Notes under the pieces: generated by a model
Told to the model about the DNA's origin: nothing
What the model saw: the letters and a program-made list of their open reading frames with translations, nothing else
Database searches by the model: none
Translations under genes and position numbers: made by a program
Source: Candidatus Cloacimonadota bacterium
Lineage (GTDB): Bacteria; Cloacimonadota; Cloacimonadia; Cloacimonadales; Cloacimonadaceae
DNA: 58,007 nucleotides
Direction of reading: 5' to 3'
NCBI GenBank assembly: GCA_028706475.1
Contig: JAQWBI010000009.1
Location: 1-58,007, forward strand
Shown here: in pieces, positions 14,888-53,899 of the stretch
Layout of the letters: each line of letters opens with the position of its first letter
How positions within the stretch are numbered: position 1 is the first letter of the stretch

Positions 14888-15074
14888 CTCGAATAATCAA
14901 ATGGAGTTCATTTGCCCTTATGTATCTTATTGTATACCTATATGTTTTATGATCAAATGGACTTCAATATCTAGTGTGGATTCTATGCATTGCCCTAAGT
15001 CCAAGTCACCTCTTAACTTATTTTAATAGATATAGATAGCATAGGTGTCTTGAACTCCATTCGCATTATCCGAG
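14888..15074. mobile_element. MITE-like 187-bp element with ~23-bp imperfect terminal inverted repeats
   Basis: The left end at 14888-14910 reads CTCGAATAATCAAATGGAG plus TTCA. The right end (15051-15074) is its reverse complement with about four differences and one extra base. A degraded third copy of the core (ATCAAATGGACTTCAA) begins near 14952. There is no ORF. The same end sequence occurs alone at 21021-21050 and 38641-38697. It occupies most of the 350-bp gap between rplQ and the next gene. Mobility is an inference from the symmetric ends and the dispersed copies; no target duplication is obvious. Confidence 0.4.
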
Positions 15075-21334: not shown

Positions 21335-21398
21335 GAAGCAGATATCATCGTGTTATCATCGAGTGACCACTGCTTTATAACGGCTTGATATCGGCTTC
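21335..21398 (+). repeat. 64-bp imperfect palindromic repeat, copy A
   Basis: Begins GAAGCAGATATCATCG and ends CGGCTTGATATCGGCTTC, around a centre GTTATCATCGAGTGACCACT. The two arms are imperfect reverse complements. It lies after the 44-bp array. The same family occurs at 30339, 38755, 47180 and 53719. Confidence 0.75.
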
Positions 21399-47063: not shown

Positions 47064-47330
47064 CTAGTGACTCGTCAAGGTACGAATGTCGTTTTCTACT
47101 GGGCTGCCATACTACAATTTGGCAGATAATCCACCGACCGGTTCAACAGCTTTATTCCTCCTCTGGATTATCGATACTTGAACCTGATATTATCGGGTTA
47201 TCATCGAGTGAACACAGGATGATAACGGCTTGATATCAGCTTCAACACTGCATAGAACAAAGGGAATGAGGAGAATGATTCAAAAGCTCCCTTTGGTCGT
47301 TGTGGTACTCCAAGCTTGACATGACACTAG
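47064..47330 (+). mobile_element. MITE-like non-coding element, copy 1 (267 bp)
   Basis: It starts CTAGTGACTCGTCAAGG and ends CTTGACATGACACTAG. The two ends are inverted repeats over 17 bp with 13 matches. Its full length matches, in reverse orientation, 53617-53899 at high identity. Flanking sequences diverge exactly outside the CTAG at both ends, which defines the borders; CTAG may be the target duplicated on insertion. It contains palindromic repeat copy D and no ORF that could be a transposase. Confidence 0.75.
47180..47243 (+). repeat. 64-bp imperfect palindromic repeat, copy D (inside the MITE-like element)
   Basis: CGGGTTATCATC and GATGATAACGG form a near-perfect stem over a GAGTGAACACAG loop. 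Outer arms GATATTA and TGATATCAGCTTC extend it. It sits near the middle of the 267-bp element. Confidence 0.75.
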
Positions 47331-47361
47331 AAGCTACCGCTGATGGATGCAAGGTAACACT

Positions 47362-47637
47362 CTATTGATCCAGGATTTGGCGTATAACGGGACTGATCTG
47401 GCTGGCAGTAAATGGTTTGGGTATGAAGGGTATTGTGTTTCCCAGTAGACCATTACTAAGGACTATGTCATCAGTGTATCCAGACATAACCAGGATCTTT
47501 TGAGCAGGCTGCAGTTTCTTGACTTCCTCCACCAATTCCATACCGTTCATCCCAAGCATTACGATATCTGTGATCAGGAGATCAGGGCAATTGTTGAAGC
47601 GAAAGTATTCCAGGGCTTCGCTTGCTGTTGATGTCAA
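47362..47637 (-). pseudogene. C-terminal fragment of a response-regulator receiver domain
   Basis: The 91-codon frame encodes the second two-thirds of a receiver domain: CPDLLITDIVMLGMNGMELV with the phospho-acceptor Asp, ILVMSGYTDD, and PFIPKPF with the conserved Lys. The first strand and acidic pair (DDE) are missing, and the frame is closed upstream by a TAG. It probably derives from a hybrid histidine kinase and begins next to another gene fragment, so it is judged a remnant. It ends 32 bp from the MITE-like element. Confidence 0.65.
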
Positions 47638-47639
47638 AA

Positions 47640-47803
47640 GCTAGGATAACACCGGGATGCAGGCGGTTAGCGCTAGACAGTGCCGCTACGAAGTAGTTGC
47701 CCCAAAATACCGGCATCATATACAGCGATTCTCTGCGACCCAACAGCATTAGAAAGTTCGCGATCAACACCGAGCACAGAACGCTCAAGATAAGATATAA
47801 CAC
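47640..47803 (-). pseudogene. N-terminal fragment of a small membrane-transporter-like gene
   Basis: The frame starts LYLILSVLCSVLIANFLMLLG and continues LYMMPVFWGNYFVAAL, like the first two helices of a DMT-type transporter. Homology ends at about 47650, where the receiver fragment begins in another frame. Family assignment is weak; the truncation is clear from the join. Confidence 0.35.
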
Positions 47804-47811
47804 AGCCTTAC

Positions 47812-48213
47812 TTACACTCTTGTTTCCCAGTTTGCTCCAGGATCCAAATAGCGACAGCTATCTACGAAAAGTTCGTACAACACATAGTCTGCATCGGAAG
47901 CGTCCTTCCAATATTGATAAATAAAGGGGGCAAAATCCGCTACGGATTTCTTTACGGAGAGGTCTGTAATAATCTCCAGATTGCCGGCGATCCGAAAGTA
48001 ACCGTTACCCCGCGCATCACTTTGCAACACAAGACACTCCACCTGTGGATTAGCTTTGATCTGAGCTACTTTGGCATCTTGACTGCCGGTAGCAAAATAA
48101 AGCCTGCCATTTTGGTTGATCATGGTCATTGGCCGCAGACTGGAACGGTTATTTTTGATAGTGGAGACCACAGCCATGTGAGTGGGAGCGGGAAGTTTGA
48201 TTGTGCTTGTCAT
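47812..48213 (-). CDS. Pyridoxamine 5'-phosphate oxidase-like flavin protein
   Basis: The 133-residue product has the split-barrel layout of the PNPOx-like family: VSTIKNNRSSLRPMTMIN, LYFATGSQDAKVAQIKANPQ and a late FRIAGNLEI strand. Members bind FMN, F420 or haem; no residue here decides which. It overlaps fetB by 4 nt (ATGA) and is therefore the last gene of fetA-fetB-PNPOx. A role beside metal export is not established. Confidence 0.7.
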   Translation of the reverse strand: MTSTIKLPAPTHMAVVSTIKNNRSSLRPMTMINQNGRLYFATGSQDAKVAQIKANPQVECLVLQSDARGNGYFRIAGNLEIITDLSVKKSVADFAPFIYQYWKDASDADYVLYELFVDSCRYLDPGANWETRV

Positions 48214-48980
48214 ATTTCCTCCAGGGGCAGATAGTATTTATCGAAACGCTTGCGTAAGTAAAGCCTGATGCCCAGATAATCTGTGAGGCAGACTCCGCTG
48301 AAAATGGCAATCATTATCATCATCTGATACTTGATGGCCACCAAGGGTGAAGCTCCTCCCAGGATCTGGCCGGTCATCATCCCAGGAAGACTAACGACGC
48401 CCATGGAGGCTACAGAAAGCAATTGCGGCAATAAGGAAGCATGCATAGCCTTGCGAAAGGTAGGCAAAGCTGCTTCCCAGAGTGTCGCTCCCAGACTAAG
48501 GCGGGTGTAATATGCCTTCCAGTTGTCGGTAAGTCCGCTTTCAAAACGCTCCATAGCCAAAGCCAAGCTGTTCATGCTGTTGCCCAGAATCATACCGTAA
48601 ATGGGGATGGCGAACTCCGGAGAGAAAATGGGTTCGGGGCGAATCACCATGATCAGGATCCATGGCATCACCACTAAACTGGTGCTTAACAGTGCGGTAG
48701 CAAAGATGGGTAACAAGATGCGACGCTGAAATTTGAGCCTACTTCGCAAGGTGAAAACTGCGTTTGAGACCATTACCAGCATCCACAGCAGTGTGAGCCA
48801 GGAGATCCTTTGAGTGAAGAGGAATTCCAGCCAGACTCCCATCAAGCTCAATTGTACAATCATTCTGCCGAAGGAACTGAAAAGCTGACCGATCAGCTTC
48901 AATTTCAACTGAATAAAGATCAGGATCGGGAAGATCAAAAGCAGCAGGGCAAATCCTAATCCAAGATATGAGATATCCAT
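48210..48980 (-). CDS. fetB: FetB/YbbM-family ABC permease
   Basis: The 256-residue integral membrane protein has about seven hydrophobic segments and the family's MILGNSMNSLALAMERF and VSLPGMMTGQILGGASPLVAI stretches. In E. coli FetAB (YbbLM) exports iron and supports peroxide resistance. It starts directly at the stop of fetA (TGA-ATG), so both are one unit. Confidence 0.88.
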   Translation of the reverse strand: MDISYLGLGFALLLLIFPILIFIQLKLKLIGQLFSSFGRMIVQLSLMGVWLEFLFTQRISWLTLLWMLVMVSNAVFTLRSRLKFQRRILLPIFATALLSTSLVVMPWILIMVIRPEPIFSPEFAIPIYGMILGNSMNSLALAMERFESGLTDNWKAYYTRLSLGATLWEAALPTFRKAMHASLLPQLLSVASMGVVSLPGMMTGQILGGASPLVAIKYQMMIMIAIFSGVCLTDYLGIRLYLRKRFDKYYLPLEEI

Positions 48981-49634
48981 TCACAGCTCCTTGTTATCGA
49001 TGACCATGCCGTCTTTCAAAGTCCAGTTTCGGTCCCAACGGGCATGCCACAATGGATCGTGGGAGATCGCAATTACTGCGCCGGGATAGTGCTTGAATAT
49101 GCAGTCCGAGATAATCCCGGACGTATTCTGATCCAAAGCAGAGCTAATTTCGTCCAGCAAAAGTATCTTGGGATTCAACAGCAAGGTTCTCACCAGGGCA
49201 ATTCGCTGCTTCTCTCCGCCGGATAGCTGTTCGGCTTGCTTTGTAAGATGGCTTTCAGGCAAACGAAAGTTCTGAAACAGACCCAACATACGCTCTCTGC
49301 GCTCCTCGCTTCTGTGGGATCGGTTGGAGTGGAACCACAGCGGTTCCAGCAATATATCCTGCACGGTTCCTTCACCCAGATAGGGCTCTTGCATCACCAT
49401 GCAGATTTGGCTGCGTAGCTCAAAAGGAGGGTACTCCCGAAGATCTTTGCCTTCGTACAGAATGCTGCCTTCATAATTCTGATTCATCAGATTCAAAGTG
49501 TTCAACAATGAACTTTTACCCACACCTGTAGGTCCCACGATCAGAATCCGTTCCGATACTTTCACACTGAGCCTGATGTCAGATAGCAGCGTTTTATCGC
49601 CGTAATATAGACGTTTGATGTCGATTTCCAGCAT
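48981..49634 (-). CDS. fetA: FetA/YbbL-family ABC ATPase
   Basis: The 217-residue ATPase has Walker A GPTGVGKSS, Q-loop VMQEPYLGEGTV, signature LSGGEKQRIALVRTLL, Walker B ILLLDEISSALD and switch His (ISHDP). The short length and its pairing with a YbbM-type permease identify it as FetA and not a general MacB/LolD ATPase. First gene of the operon. Confidence 0.88.
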   Translation of the reverse strand: MLEIDIKRLYYGDKTLLSDIRLSVKVSERILIVGPTGVGKSSLLNTLNLMNQNYEGSILYEGKDLREYPPFELRSQICMVMQEPYLGEGTVQDILLEPLWFHSNRSHRSEERRERMLGLFQNFRLPESHLTKQAEQLSGGEKQRIALVRTLLLNPKILLLDEISSALDQNTSGIISDCIFKHYPGAVIAISHDPLWHARWDRNWTLKDGMVIDNKEL

Positions 49635-49788
49635 TTGGACTACTCCCGTGTCCTGTAACTAATGTATGTAACAATTATTCTGCTATGCTTTGCGTCAGTA
49701 CCCATTCTGTCAATGAATATCTGCATTTCGTGAAATTCATCGGGGCTATGGGTACTTGTCCCACCGTAATGGAGGATTCCGATTGTAT

Positions 49789-49808
49789 CGGAGCTTTCCG
49801 AAGCTCCG
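49789..49808 (-). terminator. Hairpin downstream of the OMP fragment
   Basis: CGGAGCTT and AAGCTCCG form a perfect 8-bp stem over a 4-nt loop. On the minus strand it follows the stop at 49825 by 16 bp. No clear T-run follows. Confidence 0.4.
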
Positions 49809-49824
49809 GTGTAATAGTGGACGT

Positions 49825-50037
49825 TTAGAATAAATTATAGCTAGGGCCAAGACCCAGCATTTGTTTCCATTGCATTTCGTGTACTTGTTCTTTGTCGTAG
49901 CGCATTTCAAATAGCAGGTTTGCGCTGATCAATCCAAAGGGTTTGGTAGTTAGTGTATTTTTCCACACCATGTCCGGGGATTTCCAATCATCGGTTGGCA
50001 GATCGTCTTCTTTTGAATTAAAGAATGCTTGATACAC
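49825..50037 (-). pseudogene. C-terminal fragment resembling a DUF3078-type outer membrane protein
   Basis: The 70-codon frame ends QWKQMLGLGPSYNLF, and has ANLLFEMRYDKEQV before it, like the last two strands of DUF3078/outer-membrane beta-barrel proteins (terminal Phe). No signal peptide or earlier strands are present, and the frame is closed upstream by TAA. I regard it as a 3' remnant. Confidence 0.45.
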
Positions 50038-50040
50038 TTA

Positions 50041-50272
50041 AAACCTGCCGCAAAAAGTGGATTGTAATGGGGCATCGATCTGCTTCTTCAGTTCCGACAC
50101 AAACTCAAGACCGCCGTCTAGAGTAGCAGCACCGAAGATGGCTACTAAAGATGTGGTCTGTACTCCCAGTCGAGCGATCGCGGCAATTGCCCCAAAGGAA
50201 AGGATGATTCCATCATTAGCAGCATTTAGACTATACCAGTTAACATAATCAGAAAACAGCGAAGTGTAAGAA
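50041..50272 (-). pseudogene. Possible VIT-family membrane-transporter fragment
   Basis: A minus-strand frame with no start codon of its own encodes NAANDGIILSFGAIAAIARL followed by TTSLVAIFGAATL and EFVSEL. The ANDGI and G-A-x4-G-x-x-[F/Y]-V-S spacing resemble the first helices of VIT/CCC1 metal transporters. It then runs on in other sequence. Weak; it may be chance. Confidence 0.25.
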
Positions 50273-50376
50273 ATATAGTAAAAAAGTAAGTTAATCGCCT
50301 CAGTGAAGATTTGCAGTTGACAAATCTGAGGGACTCACAATATTGCAAAAAATTGAAAACTGGAACGAGGTCCGCA
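50273..50376. other. Short leader before the M20 peptidase gene
   Basis: Part of the 742-bp gap between fetA and the peptidase, which otherwise holds the remnants listed. I see no promoter with both boxes; ACGAGG at 50365-50370 is the ribosome site. Confidence 0.4.
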
Positions 50377-51495
50377 ATGCAAAATGATGTTATCAGCTAT
50401 TTTATGCAATTGGTGCGCATTGATAGCGAATCACTGAATGAGAGGGCAATGGCAGACACAGTCAAAAAGGATCTGGAAAGCATTGGTGCAAAAGTAGAAG
50501 AAGACGATTGCCACAAAAAGACGGGGGGAAATGCCGGAAACATCTATGCATATCTTCCCGGAAACATAGATAAACCTCCAATTTTATTCTGCGCTCACTT
50601 GGATACAGTAAAGCCCGGAAACGGAGTAAAACCAAGAATTGAGAATGGAACAATCTACAGCGACGGAATTACCATCCTGGGCAGCGATGATAAATCCGGC
50701 GTAGCGGAGATAATCATAGGTCTAAAGCGTATTGTTGAAAGCGGCATGGATCATGCTCCGGTGGAGATTCTCTTTACCGTTAGCGAGGAAATCGGTCTTT
50801 TGGGGGCCAAAGGTTTCGACAAGAGCCGCCTAAAATCTGCCTTTGGTTTTGCCTTGGATTCTCATCAGGTTGGCGAGCTTTTGATCGGCGCTCCTGCACA
50901 GAACTCGTATAAAGCGGTTGTTCACGGTGTGGAGGCTCATGCGGGAGTCGAACCGGAAAAAGGGTTGAATGCCATCCGGATAGCTTCTGAAGCCATTGCC
51001 GCCATGCCCATGGGCAGGATAGATTTTGAGACCACCTGCAATCTGGGTATTATCAATGGCGGTGAAGCCACGAATGTGGTTCCCAACAAGGTTTTCCTCT
51101 ATGGTGAAGCTCGCAGCCACAATCCTGGAAAATTAGAACGTGTATGTAAAGATATCCATCATGCCCTGGAGAGCACCATAGCACGGTATGCGGAGCAGGG
51201 TGCTCGGCTGGAATATACTTGCGAAAAAGAGTACGAAGCCTTCAGAGTGGGCGAAAACGATCCCATAGTAATCTTGACCAAAAAAGCCTTGCAAAAGCTG
51301 AATATCTCCTGCCAACCTACAGTTGGCGGCGGCGGCAGCGATGCTAACATCATCTTTGCCACGGGTCTCCCGATGGTCATTACCGGAACGGGGATGGATA
51401 AAGTTCACACAGTTCATGAAAACATAAAAACCGACCAGTTGCTAAAGGGTACTGCCTTCATCGAGGAATTGGTACGTGTATATAGCGAAGGCTAA
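50377..51495 (+). CDS. M20-family metallopeptidase, PepT-like
   Basis: Zinc-dependent peptidase or deacylase of the M20 family. The 372-residue product has His74 and Asp76 (CAHLDTVKP), the bridging Asp (GSDDKSGVA), the catalytic Glu pair SEEIG (Glu137, Glu138) and a C-terminal metal His (HTVHENI). These support a tripeptidase-like member; ArgE/DapE are less likely. I chose ATG 50377, six nt after ACGAGG, over a frame start at 50311. It is followed 3 nt later by dapB, so it belongs to the diaminopimelate gene cluster. Confidence 0.88.
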   Translation: MQNDVISYFMQLVRIDSESLNERAMADTVKKDLESIGAKVEEDDCHKKTGGNAGNIYAYLPGNIDKPPILFCAHLDTVKPGNGVKPRIENGTIYSDGITILGSDDKSGVAEIIIGLKRIVESGMDHAPVEILFTVSEEIGLLGAKGFDKSRLKSAFGFALDSHQVGELLIGAPAQNSYKAVVHGVEAHAGVEPEKGLNAIRIASEAIAAMPMGRIDFETTCNLGIINGGEATNVVPNKVFLYGEARSHNPGKLERVCKDIHHALESTIARYAEQGARLEYTCEKEYEAFRVGENDPIVILTKKALQKLNISCQPTVGGGGSDANIIFATGLPMVITGTGMDKVHTVHENIKTDQLLKGTAFIEELVRVYSEG

Positions 51496-51498
51496 ACA

Positions 51499-52245
51499 AT
51501 GAACACAATCTGCCTGATCGGTTATGGCAAGATGGGCAGAATGCTCCATCAGTTGGCTCCGGACAAGGGCTTTGAAGTAGTAGGTATTATCGATCCAGCC
51601 TGGGATGGCGCTGTGCGAGAAATAAGCCCGGAAAGCCTGAATAACGCAGATGTTGCCATCGAATTCAGCCATCCATCCGTGGTGTTGAACAATTTGGAAC
51701 GGCTGATCAAACTGAGGCAGACCTGTGTGATCGGTACCACTGGGTGGCATCAGGAATTGCCTCGCATCATGGAAAAAGCAAAAGCCAGCGGCATCGGCAT
51801 GGTTTATGGCGCAAACTTCTCTTTGGGGATGAACCTGTTTTCCAGATTGATCGCAGATGCAGTGAAGCTGATGGACAAATTTGACGATTACGACCTTCTG
51901 GCATGGGAGCAACATCATGCTCAGAAAGCGGATAGCCCTTCCGGCACGGCGGTGGAATTGGCGAAACTGATCCTGGATAATAGCTCCCGCAAGAGCAAGG
52001 TGGTTTGGGACAGGCTGGAACGGCGCCCGGAAGCAGATGAGCTTCATTTTGCCAGTATGCGGGGCGGAAAGATACCTGGGACTCATGTCTTGGCTTTCGA
52101 CAGCGAGGCAGATACCATTGAGCTAAGCCACGTAGTGCGATCCCGTGCAACCTTCGCTTTGGGTGCTTTACAGGCGGCAAAATGGATTGCCGGGAAAAAA
52201 GGTGTATTTAACTTTAAGGATCTGATAGCGGATATACTATGCTGA
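51499..52245 (+). CDS. dapB: 4-hydroxy-tetrahydrodipicolinate reductase
   Basis: NAD(P)H-dependent step of lysine/meso-diaminopimelate synthesis. The 248-residue product has an N-terminal Rossmann motif (GYGKMGRM), GTTGW (79-83), and the active-site EQHHAQKADSPSGTA with His139/140 and Lys143. It overlaps dapF by 7 nt. Confidence 0.95.
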   Translation: MNTICLIGYGKMGRMLHQLAPDKGFEVVGIIDPAWDGAVREISPESLNNADVAIEFSHPSVVLNNLERLIKLRQTCVIGTTGWHQELPRIMEKAKASGIGMVYGANFSLGMNLFSRLIADAVKLMDKFDDYDLLAWEQHHAQKADSPSGTAVELAKLILDNSSRKSKVVWDRLERRPEADELHFASMRGGKIPGTHVLAFDSEADTIELSHVVRSRATFALGALQAAKWIAGKKGVFNFKDLIADILC

Positions 52246-53018
52246 TCCCTTTCATCAAGATGCAAGCTCAGGGCAATGACTTTGTAGTGTTGGATGTTTT
52301 TGAACAATCATTATCTGAGGTCGATTTTCATGCTTTGGCTATTGCTGTCTGCGAGCGTCATTTTGGAGTGGGAGCCGATGGTTTGGTGCTAATGTCTCCA
52401 TGCCTGGAAGCAGACGCCCGGATGACAATCTTCAATAACGACGGGTCTTTAGCGGAAATGTGTGGCAGCGCTCTGCGCTGTGTGTCTTCTCTGATGATGC
52501 AAAAAACCGGTAATTGCGACTTGGATATCCTTACCGATTCCGGATTAAAGCATGCCCGGCGAGATGGGGAGAAGGTTACGGTGAATCTGGGTAAAGCCAG
52601 GCTACTACGCAAGGGCTATCCAGTGGAGCAATTTACCGGTGACCTTGTGAACATCGGTAATCCGCATTATGTGGTGTTTGTAGATAGCCTGGAGGACGAT
52701 CCTCATCTGAAATATGGCACTATACTGGAAAACCATCCTGCCTTCGAAAAGCCCGTAAATGCTCATTTTATCAAGGTGTGCAACCGAGCCAGAATTCAGA
52801 TGAAGATATGGGAACATGCCTGCGGACCTACTTTGGCATGTGGAACCGGAGCCGCATCCTCGGTTTTTGCTGGCATCCAGCGCGGTATTCTCGATAGCAA
52901 AGTGGATGTGGAAGTTCCGGGCGGTGAGCTGCAGATTGATTACCTTTGTGACGGCAGCCTCCTGCTTTCCGGTACGGTTGCGGAGTCCTTTCGGGGAAGC
53001 TATCCATGGAAAATCTAG
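52239..53018 (+). CDS. dapF: Diaminopimelate epimerase
   Basis: Converts LL- to meso-diaminopimelate for peptidoglycan and lysine. The 259-residue product has MQAQGNDFVV, catalytic Cys75 (AEMCGSALR) and Cys201 (LACGTGA), and WEHACGPTLA. The first motif is usually MCGNGxR; here N-G is replaced by S-A. It overlaps the next gene by 13 nt. Confidence 0.95.
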   Translation: MLIPFIKMQAQGNDFVVLDVFEQSLSEVDFHALAIAVCERHFGVGADGLVLMSPCLEADARMTIFNNDGSLAEMCGSALRCVSSLMMQKTGNCDLDILTDSGLKHARRDGEKVTVNLGKARLLRKGYPVEQFTGDLVNIGNPHYVVFVDSLEDDPHLKYGTILENHPAFEKPVNAHFIKVCNRARIQMKIWEHACGPTLACGTGAASSVFAGIQRGILDSKVDVEVPGGELQIDYLCDGSLLLSGTVAESFRGSYPWKI

Positions 53019-53620
53019 GCAAGTATCTTCAGGAGACCAGAAAAGCCAAGGGGATAGACTATGCCCAAATCTGGGAGGATATCCGCATCGGAGAAGCTCA
53101 GATTCGCGCATTAGAAGAAAACCGGCTGTTCGACTTGGGTCATTATGGCTTTGTAAAAGTATTGGTTTACAACTATGCCCGCTATCTGGAAGCCGATTTG
53201 GACGCCGTGATGCAGGAATTCCGGGTGATGATGCCGGCAAACACCAAAAAGGAGTTCAAGCCCAGCAAAGTAGTGAAAGAAAAGAAGATAATGCTCTCCA
53301 CAAACTTCCTCTGGACTGTGGGAATAGTGGTTATTGTGGCTATTTTGGGCTCAATCCTATTTCAGGGATATCGGCAGGGTTGGCTCAAAACACCGGATTT
53401 CTTTAGCAGGGAAGATAAGCCTCAGCAAAGCGAACCGGTAGAGGACGAACCGCTGGTAACGCGTGATAGCCTCCGGATTAGAATGCGCATATTGAGTGAA
53501 AGCATTCCCCAAAGCAACGTGATAACAAGTGACAATCATACTTTTCACATTGCTGCGGATACCACTGATTATATCGGCAATATCCTGGGGGAAAGCCCCG
53601 TAAACGTCCCGATTCACTAG
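53006..53620 (+). CDS. RodZ-like HTH-transmembrane protein, 3' end at an inserted element
   Basis: The 204-residue product has an N-terminal helix-turn-helix of the RodZ type (GKYLQETRKAKGIDYAQIWE; YGFVKVLVYNYARYL) and a transmembrane helix at ~95-118, then an acidic linker. RodZ links MreB to the membrane in rod-shape control. The periplasmic part is short, about 50 residues, versus the family's DUF4115 domain. Its stop TAG (53618-53620) is the TAG of the element's terminal CTAG. So the gene may have been shortened by insertion. Confidence 0.7.
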   Translation: MENLGKYLQETRKAKGIDYAQIWEDIRIGEAQIRALEENRLFDLGHYGFVKVLVYNYARYLEADLDAVMQEFRVMMPANTKKEFKPSKVVKEKKIMLSTNFLWTVGIVVIVAILGSILFQGYRQGWLKTPDFFSREDKPQQSEPVEDEPLVTRDSLRIRMRILSESIPQSNVITSDNHTFHIAADTTDYIGNILGESPVNVPIH

Positions 53621-53899
53621 TGTCATGTCAAGCATGGTGTGGTAATCTGCGAGTTGCCACAACGACCTAAGGGAGCTTTTGAATCATGCTCCTCATTCCC
53701 TTTGCCCTATGCAGTGTTGAAGCTGATATCAAGCCGTTATCATCCTGTGTTCACTCGATGATAACCCGATAATATCAGGTTCAAGTATCGATAAACCAGA
53801 GGAGGAATAAAGCTTTTGAACCGTTTGGTAGATTATCTGCCAAGTTCGAGTTTAACGGTCCAGTAGACAAACGACATTCGTACCTTGACGATTCACTAG
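53617..53899 (-). mobile_element. MITE-like non-coding element, copy 2 (283 bp), inverted relative to copy 1
   Basis: The reverse complement starts CTAGTGAATCGTCAAGG and ends CTTGACATGACACTAG, matching 47064-47330 along the full length. It is 16 bp longer, from small indels in the flanks of the palindrome. It contains palindromic repeat copy E. Sequence outside the CTAG ends is unrelated between copies. Its left end supplies the stop codon of the RodZ-like gene. Confidence 0.75.
53719..53782 (-). repeat. 64-bp imperfect palindromic repeat, copy E (inside the MITE-like element)
   Basis: GAAGCTGATATCAAGCCG, TTATCATC, then GATGATAACCCGATAATATC and AGGTTC: the reverse complement of copy D, identical over its full 64 bp. 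Confidence 0.75.

Follow-up and report, generated by a model that had tools for sequence, protein, structure and literature searches.

Two non-coding sequences of about 270 bp stand in opposite orientation around a 6.3-kb segment of the 58,007-nucleotide stretch of DNA analysed here (the window), which belongs to a 2.06-Mb draft MAG of 90 contigs from the Cloacimonadota. The locus raises the question of what these two sequences are, and whether their inverted arrangement has any bearing on the genes that they enclose. The present analysis shows that the pair is real, and that it represents an ordinary remnant of a mobile element of a known kind. Both sequences belong, with high confidence, to a MITE that derives from an IS630-family insertion sequence, is non-autonomous, and keeps little beyond the outer ends.

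The inverted pair and its dispersed copies

Copy 1 occupies positions 47064..47330 (+) and copy 2 positions 53617..53899 (-), inverted with respect to copy 1, with lengths of 267 and 283 bp, respectively, including the flanking CTAG on both sides. The left end of copy 1 (47064..47091, +) is CTAGTGACTCGTCAAGGTACGAATGTCG and its right end (47311..47330, -) is CTAGTGTCATGTCAAGCTTG as read directly; the corresponding ends of copy 2 are CTAGTGAATCGTCAAGGTACGAATGTCG (left, 53872..53899, -) and CTAGTGTCATGTCAAG (right, 53617..53632, +). A repeat search of the window yielded the arm pairs 47064-47094/53869-53899 (97%) and 47092-47305/53657-53870 (92%). Over the aligned columns the two copies are ~91% identical (9% differing), and they also differ by a gap of ~15 bp near the right end. 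Inspection of the ORFs of both copies revealed no transposase. The preliminary description of paired, CTAG-bounded, non-coding elements of ~270 bp in opposite orientation and devoid of a transposase agrees with these coordinates, ends and identity. The gene content that it gave for the interval also matches the genes found there, namely a response-regulator fragment, a PNPOx-like protein, fetB/fetA-type ABC genes, an M20 peptidase, dapB, dapF, and rodZ. The first of these, a response-regulator receiver fragment at 47362-47637, looks like a remnant, because the matching domain in the congener G005 sits in a hybrid histidine kinase ORF of 918 aa. For dapF, the best matches come from metagenome-assembled genomes of Candidatus Cloacimonadota.

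The MITE, whole or partial, is present in at least 40 places in the genome of the window (40 of 149 candidates were scored), with identities of 76-100% among the scored copies and E values down to 1e-106, a similarity far beyond chance. Dozens of instances of its end motif are present in the same genome, and the motif recurs across the family and the order. Coding sequence is found on both flanks of only one of the 40 copies, whereas 84% of randomly chosen window positions are coding. Some of the copies are truncated, diverged, or nested with other repeats.

Two further arrangements were observed among the repeats. In another genome (G030:C119; L172 1355-1562), two short MITEs with the same end type lie head to tail and have one CTAG in common. 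Insertions of another palindromic repeat (TGGAGTTCATTTGACC ... GGTCAAATGGACTTCA) lie within or beside some MITE copies; they were seen at L041 1000-1700 and at L016, L028, L030, L035, and L036, and the window has a one-mismatch match to the repeat at 14951-14966.

The autonomous partner and its transposase

The end pattern of the MITE was sought in 107 genomes of the order and is present in 19 of them. Complete elements with these ends, 1208-1209 bp (~1.2 kb) in length, were found at two loci, one in the order (G073:C141:208-1415, L169) and one in the congener G005 (G005:C23:8883-10091, L187). The two ends of the IS630 element are unlike each other, and this asymmetry is retained in the MITE. 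The right end of copy 1 is identical to the transposase-5' ends of both elements over 20/20 bp, and its left end matches the transposase-3' end at 21/28 (G005) and 23/28 (G073) positions. An autonomous element with matching ends, the existence of which had been left as a check, is thus available in two genomes.

The ORFs of the G005 and G073 elements match DDE_3 (PF13358, E 2e-29) together with HTH_32/HTH_29, and score 162-163 bits against the NCBIfam model transpos_IS630 (NF033545), for which the cut-off is 100. We assign the element family to IS630 because the transposases that come with the matching ends match both of these models. The acidic triad D, D, E is in place; as judged by eye, 41 residues separate its second and third members. 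In both elements the transposase consists of two overlapping ORFs that meet at a conserved A8 run (TTCTAAAAAAAAC), which suggests that the protein may be produced by programmed frameshifting. The junction of the two frames lies at about 1054-1114 in L187, about 685-736 in L169, and about 534-541 in L231. The G005 element interrupts an ORF, putatively encoding a polysaccharide deacetylase, at ...GGAACTAG, and the flanks joined at one CTAG stay in frame.

In the window's own genome, a relic of an IS630 transposase gene was found at C74:456-972 (517 bp). Over 520 bp it shares 84.6% identity with the G005 element; it retains the A8 run and lacks both element ends. The relic emerged in a protein search; the DDE_3 profile search of the same genome gave no match. 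No intact IS630 transposase was found among the 90 contigs of this draft, and the solo-end candidates at the starts of contigs C51, C60, and C28 revealed no intact autonomous copy. It appears that this genome has lost a working IS630 transposase and that the relic is what is left of it.

We have also considered as a partner the DDE_Tnp_1 fragments at two contig ends of the own genome (G000), which were rejected, since they belong to an unrelated element with ends in TGGCATTCCCCCA. The fragments (G000:C14:46353-46501 and C21:1-137; L051 and L052) are transposase C-termini cut by the contig ends and have a common TGGCATTCCCCC-type end. They probably represent a multicopy IS that was collapsed in the assembly.

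The internal insert and the hairpin

The window MITEs are long forms of an element that also exists in a shorter version. Insert-free forms of 127-146 bp were found in the own genome (127 bp, C18), in G029 (146 bp), and in G019 (about 135 bp). The long form, with a full length of 267-283 bp, corresponds to the short form plus an insert of ~127 bp between near-direct repeats TTCAAAAGCT. In copy 1, the insert is placed at 47152..47278 (+), between TTCAACAGCT (47142-47151) and TTCAAAAGCT (47279-47288), and in copy 2 at 53684..53810 (-), bounded by AGCTTTTGAA (53674-53683 and 53811-53820); both sets of boundaries are inferred.

At the centre of the insert is a hairpin of ~65 bp, with the core at 47178..47245 (+) in copy 1 (arms 47178-47210 and 47213-47245) and at 53717..53784 (-) in copy 2. 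The same hairpin is dispersed on its own in the genome of the window and in G003, one of the 11 congeners (loci L201-L205 and L206-L219). One stand-alone copy lies in the window itself, outside any MITE, at 21336..21397 (+). In G003 the hairpin is found alone at many places, and of the 40 genomes searched the remaining 38 lack it. Y1 transposase genes are present in 7 of the 12 genomes of the genus, including the own genome and G003. In G003 the hairpin nearest to a Y1 gene is ~0.6-1.1 kb away, and in the own genome none was found within the flanks of the Y1 genes that were examined. We put forward tentatively, and with somewhat more doubt than conviction, that the hairpin is a mobile REP-like family that entered the IS630 MITE and subsequently multiplied as part of it. 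If so, one small mobile element would be riding inside another, with a hairpin family confined to two of the tested species of the genus, and the nested hairpin could show how MITEs acquire internal modules.

The fold of the element might instead be what matters, that is, selection could be acting on the MITE as a structured non-coding RNA or a regulatory repeat with a function of its own, transposition being merely its origin. It indeed folds better than shuffled sequences (z of -3.05 as DNA and -4.56 as RNA), but strong folding is inherent to inverted-repeat elements, and Rfam gives only three tRNAs in the window and no match for the MITE. Likewise, the loop of the hairpin is well conserved, nearly constant around TCGGGTGAACACAG across the stand-alone copies, whereas the stem of the 28 stand-alone hairpins pairs imperfectly and has few two-sided changes, which lends little support to selection on the base pairing. 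The intergenic location of the copies would suit such a function; their truncation, divergence, and nesting with other repeats speak against it. We consider this explanation improbable, and retain the reading of the sequences as copies of an IS630-family MITE.

The pair and the order of the enclosed genes

The preliminary description treated the two copies as a special pair that could permit inversion of the segment by recombination. For 40 randomly placed copies, ~4.7 neighbour pairs at distances of up to 6.6 kb are expected, and the probability of at least one is 0.996; two such pairs, on contigs C9 and C20, are observed among the 40 scored copies. The closest scored relative of copy 1 is L004 on contig C4 (93.6%) and that of copy 2 is L006 on contig C42 (93.3%), both values being higher than the 91.0% between the two copies. 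Each copy is thus nearer to a relative elsewhere, and the pair therefore did not originate as a pair. That the two copies enclose the 6.3-kb segment in inverted orientation is a coincidence.

The congener G009 has the window's gene order, PNPOx-fetB-fetA-(gap)-M20-dapB-dapF-rodZ. An antiporter-like gene lies beyond rodZ in the window, and in G005 and G008 rodZ points at this gene too, with the orientation unchanged; in G009 this gene also follows rodZ, but in reversed orientation. Since the segment keeps the gene order of its congeners, there is no sign in the comparable ones (G005, G008, and G009) of its inversion or of its mobility as a unit, and we take its gene order, as far as these genomes go, to be the ancestral one; a population mixed for the two orientations is conceivable. 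A composite unit, or a substrate for recombination by which the segment would be flipped or mobilised, is very improbable. Arms of 214 bp with 92% complementarity are in principle long enough for RecA-dependent recombination. However, the spacing is that expected by chance, the closer relatives of both copies lie elsewhere, the gene order and the rodZ-antiporter orientation are unchanged, and the pair has no transposase. The inverted pair is explained without any special recombination.

Insertion sites and target duplication

The rodZ gene (53006..53620, +) ends with a TAG stop codon at 53618-53620, inside the CTAG of copy 2. The RodZ protein has the same length as its congeners', and the congener proteins end at the same residue, followed by a stop codon. 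A truncation of rodZ by copy 2 is thereby ruled out. The CTAG of copy 2 supplies the C-TAG at the end of rodZ, and the insertion therefore made use of the stop codon and left the protein length unchanged. The species available for these site comparisons have rodZ proteins of 46-69% identity. In the 11 congeners searched, no MITE was found beyond the bare hairpin (G003) or a 29-bp stretch (G010). The element is hence not fixed in the relatives, a possibility that had been raised against its mobile origin.

Intact MITE ends carry TA inside CTAG. TA duplication is documented for the IS630 family (PMC2170065), and IS630 itself prefers the TA in 5'-CTAG-3' (Tenzen and Ohtsubo 1991, cited in PMC2170065). 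Because the target itself is CTAG, duplications of 2 bp (TA) and of 4 bp (CTAG) look alike. In two copies an unusual tetramer is repeated identically at either end (L019, CTAC/CTAC; L022, CCAG/CCAG), and in several old copies the tetramers at the two ends are unequal.

An IS5-family derivative with a 4-bp YTAR target, which CTAG and the matching tetramers of L019 and L022 would fit, is extremely unlikely, as every element found to carry these ends encodes an IS630 transposase, the DDE_Tnp_1 (PF01609) fragments of the own genome are part of an element whose ends are different, and other MITE copies have unequal end tetramers. Of the earlier proposal, the non-autonomous mobile element with CTAG ends stands, and the IS5-like YTAR origin is largely refuted.

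Proposed origin

The copies are short (267-283 bp) and dispersed, they contain no transposase ORF, and an autonomous IS630 element with matching terminal repeats encodes a DDE_3 transposase. On the IS630-family MITE reading, a transposase acting in trans would have recognised the asymmetric ends, excised the MITE, and reinserted it at the TA of CTAG targets, the copies now being almost always intergenic. Duplication of the target TA would account for the CTAG on both sides of each copy. The working transposase would later have been lost from the window genome, leaving the relic, and a related species retains the complete element. The hairpin-based insert may have been gained before or during the spread of the MITE here. 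An IS630-MITE system is documented here in the Cloacimonadota, with a partner IS, a relic, and short and long forms.

Comparison with known systems

A literature search on repeats in Cloacimonas gave nothing relevant among the hits listed. The inner hairpin resembles the REP/RAYT systems in that it is a palindrome scattered in stand-alone copies, here through two species of the genus. It differs from them in its length of ~65 bp, compared to 20-40 bp for REP elements (PMC3733652), and in that no close flanking of a Y1 gene was found.

The IS630 element of Shigella sonnei and ISY100 have the transposase family in common with the present system. The TA duplication described for them (PMC2170065) would be a further likeness, and so is, for IS630, the CTAG preference. 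Both are autonomous, and ISY100 has a single transposase ORF, unlike the two overlapping ORFs of the Cloacimonadota IS.

The Correia elements/NEMIS of Neisseria are TA-bounded MITEs with forms of 107 and 155 bp (PMC2229807). As here (127-146 vs 267-283 bp), a short form coexists with a longer one that has internal sequence. The likeness is one of form; in the present case the insert is ~127 bp and its hairpin also occurs independently in the genome.

RUP (repeat unit of pneumococcus), paired with IS630-Spn1, offers the nearest precedent. RUP is 107 bp long, has terminal repeats that match IS630-Spn1, and is inserted at TA (PMC2229807). Both RUP and the present MITE are small, non-coding, intergenic, and high-copy, with IS630-type ends. 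The present MITE is longer and has an internal hairpin module. Moreover, the host species of RUP carries IS630-Spn1, whereas here the partner IS was found complete only in related species.
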